From positions 14,181 through 47,662 of the IMG/VR virus record IMGVR_UViG_3300030380_004565: DNA of 33,482 nucleotides; one strand, written 5' to 3'. Source of the DNA: a virus. The stretch's first letter is position 1. Each line of letters starts with the position of its first letter. Positions 139 through 18,748 of this stretch are shown here, piece by piece. The position numbers and the translations under genes were made by a program. The notes under the pieces were generated by a model. The model saw nothing but the letters and a program-made list of their open reading frames with translations, was not told the origin of the DNA and searched no databases.

Positions 139-229
139 GGGGGTGAATTAGATTTGTCCGTAATATCAACATTTTAACCTTTGTTGCTTAACGATTACGG
201 AAACGAGGGTGCAACTCCCTCCACCTCCA
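139..229 (+). ncRNA. tmRNA-like tRNA-like domain without a tag-coding region
   Basis: Positions 139-145 (GGGGGTG) pair with 222-228 (CACCTCC) as a 7-bp acceptor stem with one G-U, leaving A229 as discriminator. Positions 205-221 form a 5-bp T arm (GAGGG/CCCTC) with the 7-nt loop TGCAACT, abutting the acceptor strand exactly as in tRNA. There is no D stem; instead comes AATTAGATTTGTC, which resembles the D-loop segment of tmRNA (consensus like GGATTCGAC). A 7-bp stem (158-164 with 194-200) follows in the position of tmRNA helix P2. Only 29 nt lie inside it, so there is no room for the tag ORF or pseudoknots. CCA is not encoded (ACTTG follows). It begins 6 nt after the SSB stop. It is not a normal tRNA because no 5-bp/7-nt anticodon arm can be drawn. 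Confidence 0.55.
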
Positions 230-230
230 C

Positions 231-277
231 TTGCTAGAAAGTAAATAAGAAATTATTTAAATGATGATAACTAGCAA
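231..277 (+). other. Long hairpin between tmRNA-like RNA and next leader
   Basis: TTGCTAG (231-237) pairs perfectly with CTAGCAA (271-277). Inside it AAATAA and TTATTT enclose a GAAA loop. No T-tract follows, so it does not look like an intrinsic terminator. It may separate the tmRNA-like RNA from the leader below, for example as a processing hairpin (inference). Confidence 0.4.
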
Positions 278-14093: not shown

Positions 14094-14200
14094 ACCATAA
14101 TCGTCCGTTATAGGGACATTCCTCGGCGTATTTAAATTTTGTGTTGGGCGGGGCCGCACAGGGTTAGTTGTCTTTACAATCACAAAAATATTTGAGTGTG

Positions 14201-14215: not shown

Positions 14216-14407
14216 ATGTCCCTAGATTATATTTACAAAGGTATGAGATTCAAAGTAAATCATAATCAAATAATTTGGTTGGTTGGGGGCAAAGTTCAAG
14301 ATGTTTGGTCAGTAGAAAAATTCAACGCAGAAGACATCAAAACAATTGTCATAGAGAGAATGATTAATATGCACTTTCTATACAAAGAACATTTCAAACG
14401 ACTATAA
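14216..14407 (+). CDS. Hypothetical protein (63 aa)
   Basis: MSLDYIYKGMRFKVNHNQII, then WLVGGKVQDVWSVEKF and a helical, basic end. A short beta-hairpin followed by a helix, possibly a small nucleic-acid-binding protein, but no recognised family. Flanked on both sides by structured RNAs. Leaderless by promoter position. Confidence 0.6.
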   Translation: MSLDYIYKGMRFKVNHNQIIWLVGGKVQDVWSVEKFNAEDIKTIVIERMINMHFLYKEHFKRL

Positions 14408-14443
14408 TAAAAAATGTGTTTTTAGATTTATGTATTAAGATTA

Positions 14444-16148: not shown

Positions 16149-18748
16149 TGGCTGAAGATAAGTCAAGATTTTCAAAAGCATTAGATTGGTTGAATGCACC
16201 AACTGATGCAAGAATTAGAAGAGACCAAGAATCAAAAGGTCTTATAGTAAATCAAACAGAGTATTCATTTTTAAATCAAGCAGTTATGGGTTACAACACT
16301 CAATCTGGATATTTCGACCATAAAAAATTAGCTGAACTAGGAGACGGTACAGGTAACTCTGCTGTTATTGCATGTCTTAATGTTTTAGCTACTGCTTTTG
16401 CCGAACCATCTATTCTTGTATCTTCAAGAAATTCTGAGGGTGATTATGTAAGAGATATGAATCACGACTTAGTAAAATTAATTAGAAGACCAAATCCTTA
16501 CATGACACAACAGTTACTTGCTAACTATATTGTTACATCTTTAAATGCAAACGGAGATGCTTTTATTTATAAAAATAGAAATGCAAGAGGACAAGTTGTA
16601 GAGTTAGTTCCTTTGATGCCTCATCTAGTAGAAGCAAAAGGTAACGAAAACGAATTAATTACACACTACCAGTATCAACCTCAAGGTGGTGTTCAAGGTG
16701 AAGATAGTGTTAAAATTCCAAAAGCCGATATGGTACATTTGCGTCAAAATGTTGACCCAAATAACATGAGGCGTGGTCTTGCTCCACTTAGAGGCGTTCT
16801 AAGAGAAATAGCAGGAGATGAAGCGGCTGGACAATATACAGCAGCTTTATTACACAACATGGCGGTACCCGGAGTTATTCTCTCACCAAGAGATGATGCA
16901 ATGGGAGGCCCAACTAGAGAAGAAGCAGAAGCTATTGCTGATATGTATAAGCAAAAGTTTGGAGGTAAGAACAGAGGTGCGCCTATGGTCTTATCCGGTG
17001 CTATGAATGTTGAAATAGTATCTTTTTCTCCAGACCAAATGAAGTTAGCCGAATTAAGAAGAATACCGGAAGAACGAGTATCTGCTGTACTTGGCGTTCC
17101 AGCTGTTCTTGCAGGTCTTGGTGCCGGTCTTGATTCAGCAACTTATTCAAATACAAAAGAACTAAGAGAGTTCTTTACCGAGTCAAAAATGGTCCCAATG
17201 TGGAACATGGTTGCGCAAGAATTGACTCATCAATTGTTACAACCAGAGTTCAATGCTAACGATAATCAATATTGTGAATACGATGTTGGTAGCGTCAGAG
17301 CTTTAGCTGATGACAAAGACAATCTCTATAAACGCATGAATACTGCAGTACAAGGGGGTTGGGTAACAATTGGCGAAGCTAGAAAAGTTGTAGGTCTTGA
17401 AGCAGATAATAGACATGATGTCTATCTCAGACCACTCAACATGATACAGGTTACAGAAGATGGAAGTCCACTTCTAAATGACCAAGCTGAATCAAGTAAC
17501 GATGATGAGAAAAAATTAACAACTATTGACTTACCGCCAGAAGTAGAGAGAGAAGATGTTGTAAAACCAACACCTACTCGTTTAAGTGAAGAAAAATATA
17601 TCGCAGAAATGCCTAATGGTGCTTACTGTGTTATAAGTCATGATGACGGTAAAGTAATTAAATGTTTTGACACAAGAAAAGAAGCAGAAGATTTTTTAAA
17701 TAATAAAAAAGACGGCTTGATTGAAGAAATTAAGGTATCTTTAGAAGAAGCAGAAACAATGTACGAACGAGGTGACAATTTGCATAGTCCAGAAGAAAAA
17801 CAAACAAATTTTCCTAGAAGTGGTGATGACCAAAAAATAAGTTTATCTAATTCACAACATCCACAATTTCCAAGTTATGCATATGTCAAAGACCTAAAAG
17901 AAAATTGGCCAGAGATTTGGAGAAGAGCTGGTACTGGAGGTAATCCTCCTACATCATTTACTGGTAATGACGCTTTCAATAAATGGACAGCATACAAAGG
18001 CGGAGACAGAAGTGAATCAACACTTAACTGGGTTAAAAGAAGAGAACGCTTTATGAATCGTCATAAAAAAAATAACAGACTAAACGGAACTATAGCTGTT
18101 ATGAAATGGGGCGGTGTTACAGCAGGTGGTGTTTCACAAATGAAGTCAGTTGTTAATGATTACAAAAAAGTTGTTAGAGAACGAAGAAAAAAATCTCTTG
18201 ACATGGCTGAAGATATTTTAATGAAGCAATTATCTGCAAGAGTTAGAAAAGCTTTACAAAACAAAGTAGAAGCTCATAATAAAAAGAATCCAAAGCACAG
18301 AGCTACTTTAAGAATGCTATCTGCAGTATTTAGAAGAGGTGTTGGTGCTTATAGAACTTCACCGGGTTCAGTTAGAGGTAATGTTACTTCAGCTGACCAG
18401 TGGGCAATGGCCAGAGTTAACGGGTTTTTAAGAGCTTTAAGAACAGGAAGATTTAGAAGAAAACCTTATGACCAAGACTTACTTCCAAGTTCACATCCTT
18501 TATCTTCTAAAAGTTCTGGTAACAAAGCAGAATCTGTAAGGGTAGGACAAGCTGTTAGCTGGTCAATAAATAAAGACCCAGACCCACCATCAGTCGTTCA
18601 TGGTATAGTCACTTCTGTAAACAATGAGGACAAAGAAGCGACAATGGTAGTATGGGCTAGGCTAGAAAATGGTGACCACAAAAAGACTGATAGGAAAGTA
18701 ACAATGTCTATTAGTAAGCTCAGAATCATATCAGACTTTAGACAATAA
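16148..18748 (+). CDS. Portal protein with large C-terminal extension (866 aa)
   Basis: Residues about 30-440 are an HK97-type portal: LGDGTGNSAVIACLNVLATA near the start, the long helical stem, and LGVPAVLAGLGAGLDSATYS. The portal forms the ring through which DNA enters and leaves the head. The usual length is 400-500; here about 400 extra residues follow: a DDGKVIKCFDTRKEAEDFL segment, a helical Arg/Lys-rich region with AYRTSPGSVRGNVTSADQWA (a pattern seen in phage proteins of unknown function), and a final VRVGQAVSWSINKD...VVHGIV segment resembling the small beta-barrel of hypervirulence-associated Tudor-like proteins. No stop or frameshift separates them, so this is a real fusion in the sequence. 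Confidence 0.85.
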   Translation: MAEDKSRFSKALDWLNAPTDARIRRDQESKGLIVNQTEYSFLNQAVMGYNTQSGYFDHKKLAELGDGTGNSAVIACLNVLATAFAEPSILVSSRNSEGDYVRDMNHDLVKLIRRPNPYMTQQLLANYIVTSLNANGDAFIYKNRNARGQVVELVPLMPHLVEAKGNENELITHYQYQPQGGVQGEDSVKIPKADMVHLRQNVDPNNMRRGLAPLRGVLREIAGDEAAGQYTAALLHNMAVPGVILSPRDDAMGGPTREEAEAIADMYKQKFGGKNRGAPMVLSGAMNVEIVSFSPDQMKLAELRRIPEERVSAVLGVPAVLAGLGAGLDSATYSNTKELREFFTESKMVPMWNMVAQELTHQLLQPEFNANDNQYCEYDVGSVRALADDKDNLYKRMNTAVQGGWVTIGEARKVVGLEADNRHDVYLRPLNMIQVTEDGSPLLNDQAESSNDDEKKLTTIDLPPEVEREDVVKPTPTRLSEEKYIAEMPNGAYCVISHDDGKVIKCFDTRKEAEDFLNNKKDGLIEEIKVSLEEAETMYERGDNLHSPEEKQTNFPRSGDDQKISLSNSQHPQFPSYAYVKDLKENWPEIWRRAGTGGNPPTSFTGNDAFNKWTAYKGGDRSESTLNWVKRRERFMNRHKKNNRLNGTIAVMKWGGVTAGGVSQMKSVVNDYKKVVRERRKKSLDMAEDILMKQLSARVRKALQNKVEAHNKKNPKHRATLRMLSAVFRRGVGAYRTSPGSVRGNVTSADQWAMARVNGFLRALRTGRFRRKPYDQDLLPSSHPLSSKSSGNKAESVRVGQAVSWSINKDPDPPSVVHGIVTSVNNEDKEATMVVWARLENGDHKKTDRKVTMSISKLRIISDFRQ

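Follow-up and report, generated by a model that had tools for sequence, protein, structure and literature searches.

A tmRNA reduced to its tRNA-like domain (TLD) is already known as a kind in phages, from Mycobacterium phage DS6A, for which the primary paper is reportedly that of Mao et al. 2009 (RNA Biol 6:355). The DS6A RNA has been described as 'TLD only' (PMC4131195) and as a 'Standard, no CDS' form, of which there are nine among 97,179 unique tmRNAs (PMC11915505). It was reported to inhibit the endogenous tmRNA in E. coli (PMC11915505), and TLD-only RNA is reported to inhibit tmRNA strongly whether chargeable or not, perhaps by titrating SmpB (PMC4131195). Tagless tmRNAs are also found in mitochondria, where they are conserved and thought to be still useful (PMC11915505). 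In the open-licence literature, DS6A and the tagless organellar tmRNAs are the only precedents that we found. Attack of phages on trans-translation has been little tested, even though every mRNA cut short by host nucleases and defences comes up against this system.

The DNA analysed here, hereafter the window, is a 33.5-kb stretch (positions 14181–47662) of a 47,662-bp IMG/VR virus record. Between the end of its ssb gene (Pfam SSB) and an uncharacterised gene at 378–938, it harbours a 91-nt element of the DS6A kind, i.e. a complete TLD in standard order, without a tag domain and in a phage (Table 1). A preliminary description had read this element as a phage-encoded tRNA-like half of tmRNA devoid of the tag domain. 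That reading is now strongly supported by the computed fold and by searches with the covariance models R1 and RF00023, and the architecture then proposed, with a 7-bp acceptor, a stemless D region, a P2 helix enclosing 29 nt and a T arm, is that of the fold. The small helix within the P2 loop was absent from that description. The folding energy is -29.5 kcal/mol (z -3.4; 1 of 200 shuffles equally good), and the minimum-energy and centroid folds are concordant. With 29 nt within an 8-bp P2, there is no room for pseudoknots PK1–PK4, and neither a tag reading frame nor its resume codon is present, in keeping with the lack of an ARAGORN call. As for a tRNA identity, neither ARAGORN nor the fold gives a D stem or a 5-bp anticodon stem with a 7-nt loop.

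Table 1. Parts of the 91-nt RNA, with positions in the window.
Feature	Position	Strand	Basis
Mini-tmRNA: TLD of tmRNA; tag ORF and pseudoknots absent	139–229	+	R1, R2, RF00023, fold
Acceptor 5' strand GGGGGTG, partner 222–228; G141·U226 is the G3·U70 pair	139–145	+	fold
Stemless, unpaired D region AATTAGATTTG; A150-G151 where GG is usual	146–156	+	fold
P2 helix 5' strand TCCGTAAT, partner 194–201 ATTACGGA	157–164	+	inverted repeat, fold, family covariation
P2 loop of 29 nt, enclosing a 5-bp helix (167–171/182–186), in place of the whole tag/pseudoknot domain	165–193	+	fold
P2 helix 3' strand	194–201	+	fold, inverted repeat
T arm GAGGG-TGCAACT-CCCTC, stem 205–209/217–221, loop 210–216; abuts the acceptor directly	205–221	+	fold
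Acceptor 3' strand CACCTCC and discriminator A229 (A73), followed by C230; CCA not encoded	222–229	+	sequence, fold

The generic searches by which this identity was to be checked gave a divided answer. ARAGORN made no call on the window, and Rfam at its gathering thresholds returned nothing. Nevertheless, the Rfam tmRNA model RF00023 aligns with the RNA from end to end (record 14319–14412, equivalent to window 139–232; model 1 to 374; 37.5 bits, E 3.1e-15), with the tag and pseudoknot region in the middle of the model deleted. Searched alone, RF00023 found no second tmRNA-like place in the virus record. The score is below the 47-bit gathering cut-off, which counts against the decoy reading given further on; the other members of the family described below that Rfam lists reach 51.9–74.5 bits. 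Two models were built from small RNAs of other viruses, with the window excluded. R1, made of 12 such RNAs, scores 47.7 bits (E 4.8e-9) exactly at 139–229, and nowhere else in the 33.5-kb window does it exceed 8.3 bits. R2, made of 101 family sequences, gives the window RNA 46.1 bits, compared with 25 or less for full-length permuted tmRNA loci that have the same T arm. The resemblance of the window RNA to the family models is thus far above chance.

A pattern demanding both halves close together revealed a second tagless RNA (L052), from a virus unrelated to this one, and a wider pattern matched at least 120 viral contigs. Among the matches listed there are 99 distinct sequences, mostly RNAs of 77–82 nt with one shared plan, namely an acceptor, a GGTTTCGAC-like D region, a P2 of 6–10 bp with a small apical hairpin, GGAC, the T arm and A73. 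A second pattern, free of acceptor requirements, also matched at least 120 viral contigs, whereas across the genomes of bacteria and archaea (257 Gb) it had 18 hits, of which five match well. Around one of these five, two of 199 Actinomycetota genomes match, including the one chosen as the centre. The class is essentially viral. Combined, the two viral scans yield more than 200 IMG/VR contigs, of which most candidates fit the family and some are false, and 101 matches were aligned; a single TLD-only phage tmRNA had been available before. Seven named isolates carry a mini-tmRNA: five Streptomyces phages, Pontimonas phage phiPsal1 and Stenotrophomonas phage Jojan60. The family is mostly unannotated. 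BLAST of the window locus or of concatenated family members returned no near match in named phages. One viral contig (L203) has two different matches, at 5–81 and 1317–1392, about 1.3 kb apart. To our knowledge, the breadth of such RNAs in phages, their conserved charging signal, their absence from annotation and the divergent member in the window are new.

Covariation was assessed in an alignment of 101 sequences (A3), which was fitted with a covariance model and hence leans toward its own structure; an all-length MAFFT alignment misplaced the acceptor and was not used for this purpose. Double changes are found in 19 of the 22 pairs of A3, and covariation is massive in the acceptor, in P2 and in the T stem. 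The covariation score of 0.700 compares with 0.137 for shuffled alignments and at most 0.085 for slid registers, so that the controls are about 5- to 10-fold lower. The preliminary description had stated that homologues lacking covariation in the acceptor or T-arm pairs would speak against it, and what we see is the opposite. This result holds at the level of the family, and no close relative was found for the window's own copy. Within P2, the apical loop (A3 columns 40–75) has a conserved (U)AAARCC...GGA motif with no obvious role. A short tag hidden in the loop was considered and dropped, as a VA-stop string occurs 15 times for 11.3 expected and is no commoner than in shuffles.

Such massive covariation already speaks, for the family, against a decaying relic of a full tmRNA. 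This explanation, together with the related one of a prophage attachment site in ssrA, might draw on a 28-nt stretch spanning the T arm and the 3' acceptor strand that is identical to the SsrA/tmRNA of Pelagibacter phage Mosig, and on the tmRNA 3' ends that some mycobacteriophages carry beside an integrase. However, both halves are present and paired in the window RNA, the 77–82-nt form recurs with the same apical hairpin in unrelated phages, and this virus record has no tyrosine integrase. We regard both versions as most improbable. As for the mycobacteriophages themselves, Validus and Milly (L292, L295) have a match to the tmRNA 3' end beside a tyrosine integrase gene, likely an attachment site in ssrA; matches of this type look like attachment sites and were rejected as members of the family.

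The G3·U70 pair is the alanine identity pair recognised by AlaRS. About half of the sequences came from the pattern that requires GGGGNTG/CANCTCC, and G3·U70 was counted on the acceptor-free set alone. Among the matches listed from a scan that required neither, 53 of 55 sequences have G3·U70 and 54 have A73; over the acceptor-free set, again among the matches listed, the pair is present in 91 of 93. In contrast, many different Watson-Crick combinations occur at pairs 4, 5 and 6, with compensation. Since G3·U70 and A73 are kept while these neighbours vary, alanine charging of the family RNAs is probably under selection. The window RNA has both identity elements (G141·U226 and A229). The D and T loops also change together: where the T loop has TGC rather than TTC, the D loop has AG in 13 of 14 cases (one of the 13, L203:5-81, being loosely aligned), and otherwise it has GG in 119 of 122. 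This coupled exchange of D18/T55 from GG/T to AG/G suggests a formed tRNA elbow, and the window RNA, with G55, is of the AG/TGC type. After A73, C74 is present in 88 of 93 sequences of the acceptor-free set and CCA is encoded in 23 of 93, among the matches listed. A C74 without CCA was tried as a special mark and abandoned, as the tRNA genes of the same phages look alike, and the pattern thus fits ordinary tRNA maturation.

The genes that flank the window RNA are on the same strand and about 245 bp apart. The RNA is followed directly by a strongly structured stretch at 231–366 (z -5.3), in which a hairpin (231–237/271–277) precedes a closing stem (279–284/357–362) that encloses three further hairpins, and which ends shortly before the ribosome-binding site of the gene at 378. 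That stretch matches no Rfam family credibly, and none of the compared loci contains a homologue of it. Such a setting might suit a role in cis, in which tRNA-processing enzymes would cut the fold and thereby separate or stabilise the mRNAs of ssb and of the 378–938 gene. We find this improbable. Promoter- and terminator-like signals at the locus are no stronger than in shuffles, and an acceptor/T-arm minihelix would do for such punctuation, whereas conservation extends to G3·U70, to the motif in the D loop and to P2. The family contexts are also varied. Five Streptomyces phages (LuckySocke, GiJojo, pSt2308, Alone3 and BRock) have the mini-tmRNA inside a tRNA array, with a gene for RNA ligase in the vicinity; in four of them, tRNA-Val is adjacent to it and tRNA-Ser is near. 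None of the five annotates it as an RNA; in GiJojo, a CDS for a 'hypothetical protein' (17023–17265; L174) overlaps it, probably an annotation artefact. The space between head protease and capsid genes is another setting of the family; in phiPsal1, as in several metagenomic phages, the mini-tmRNA precedes the capsid gene, and elsewhere it is near DnaB helicase, portal, exonuclease or other genes. These diverse neighbourhoods argue for a trans-acting RNA. That the fold is a leader of the downstream operon, the other possibility raised in the preliminary description, is disfavoured both by these contexts and by the second downstream gene (931–1488), whose relatives lack the RNA. The search for homologues after ssb in related phages, also suggested there, found close relatives neither for ssb nor for the gene that follows it.

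The tRNA arrays and the RNA ligase gene of the Streptomyces phages might also point to a stand-in that would restore translation after host defences have cut tRNAs, akin to the tRNAs and RNA ligase of phages. This seems very unlikely, as the RNA has no anticodon and most members, including that of the window, are not near tRNAs (17 of 101 have one within 1 kb).

With regard to the host, the virus encodes a WhiB-family regulator (L051:62-358, minus strand; Pfam PF02467, E 1.7e-25), and its capsid protein is matched most often in actinobacteriophages, although the best-covering matches include phages of other hosts. Taken together, they make an actinobacterial host likely. An SmpB gene was found in none of 18 phage records searched, this virus included, and host SmpB would therefore be needed.

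How, then, might such an RNA act? Transcribed during infection, it would be cut like a tRNA by RNase P and RNase Z (or exonucleases) to about 91 nt, and a host enzyme would complete its CCA end. It would fold as the TLD of tmRNA with a capped P2 stem, be charged with alanine through G3·U70 and A73 and be bound by host SmpB and EF-Tu. The charged complex might then enter stalled ribosomes and offer no reading frame. Devoid of a tag frame, the RNA could not complete trans-translation and would thus serve as a decoy, titrating SmpB, AlaRS or EF-Tu, occupying stalled ribosomes unproductively, or both, with less host trans-translation as the outcome. We infer this whole chain, from transcription, maturation and charging to SmpB binding, inhibition and benefit to the phage. 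It is favoured by the published inhibition of tmRNA by TLD-only RNA (PMC4131195) and by the DS6A form (PMC11915505). The competition for SmpB, AlaRS or ribosomes evoked in the preliminary description is consistent with these reports and with the invariant G3·U70. On balance, we consider it reasonably probable that the window RNA is an alanylatable, SmpB-binding decoy that damps host trans-translation. Its affinity for SmpB could be weaker, since its D region is not the usual GGTTTCGAC.

A further observation goes against the decoy: the published inhibitor is active even uncharged, which leaves the retention of G3·U70 unexplained. A conserved charging signal would better suit an active acceptor than a passive sponge, and this is the strength of the main rival reading, in which the charged mini-tmRNA and SmpB would remove the nascent chain without adding a degradation tag, so as to spare unfinished phage proteins or to complement the host. 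The conservation of the mitochondrial tagless forms mentioned above points the same way. Nevertheless, the RNA has no stop codon to place in the mRNA channel, such that recycling would need another factor, and the reported TLD-only RNA inhibits (PMC4131195, PMC11915505). We therefore hold tag-free rescue to be unlikely. For the decoy reading, the conserved G3·U70 makes a specific prediction, that charging matters and that the RNA is not just a sponge for SmpB. The named isolates make the idea testable, in particular those with laboratory hosts, namely LuckySocke and Alone3, which are phages of Streptomyces lividans, and the Pontimonas phage phiPsal1. It is tempting to go further and to propose that tagless mini-tmRNAs are widespread, for the most part overlooked anti-rescue RNAs, selected in phages of many bacteria as alanylatable decoys that switch off or redirect host trans-translation; we would give this broader proposal an even chance.

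Among known systems, the tRNA-like structures of the TYMV type (RF00233) share acceptor/T-arm mimicry with the window RNA and match weakly (E 0.032 in 301 nt), the conserved part being centred on the T arm; they differ in being 3' ends of viral RNAs and in their architecture. The tagless tmRNAs of mitochondria and of Mallomonadaceae plastids likewise consist of a tRNA-like part without a tag frame, but they are organellar and the mitochondrial ones are usually permuted. The pelagiphage two-piece tmRNAs (Mosig, Melnitz-like) are permuted too and have about 320–370 nt, with tags such as GEDNFALAA. Permuted tmRNAs of this sort, with GNENFALAA, GEDNFALAA and the like as tags, are present in many metagenomic viral contigs (L003–L050; Mosig is L002). 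ARAGORN makes no tmRNA call in about half of the permuted loci, and some loci end at contig edges. Two of them (L009, L022) share the 5' GGGGGTGAATTAG with the window RNA. The permuted order (RF04321), in which the 3' piece is upstream of the 5' piece, is not that of the window RNA; the idea that it is a piece of a permuted tmRNA was rejected because both halves are present here in standard order. With standard tmRNA (RF00023), it has in common the G3·U70 acceptor, the stemless D region, the start of P2, the T arm and A73, and it lacks about 280 model positions that comprise the tag ORF and the pseudoknots. The collections searched did not contain the DS6A sequence; the window RNA, for its part, has an extra-long P2 loop and an elbow of the AG/TGCAA type. 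Like the DS6A RNA, it is borne by a phage, follows the standard 5'-3' order and contains little beyond the tRNA-like domain.
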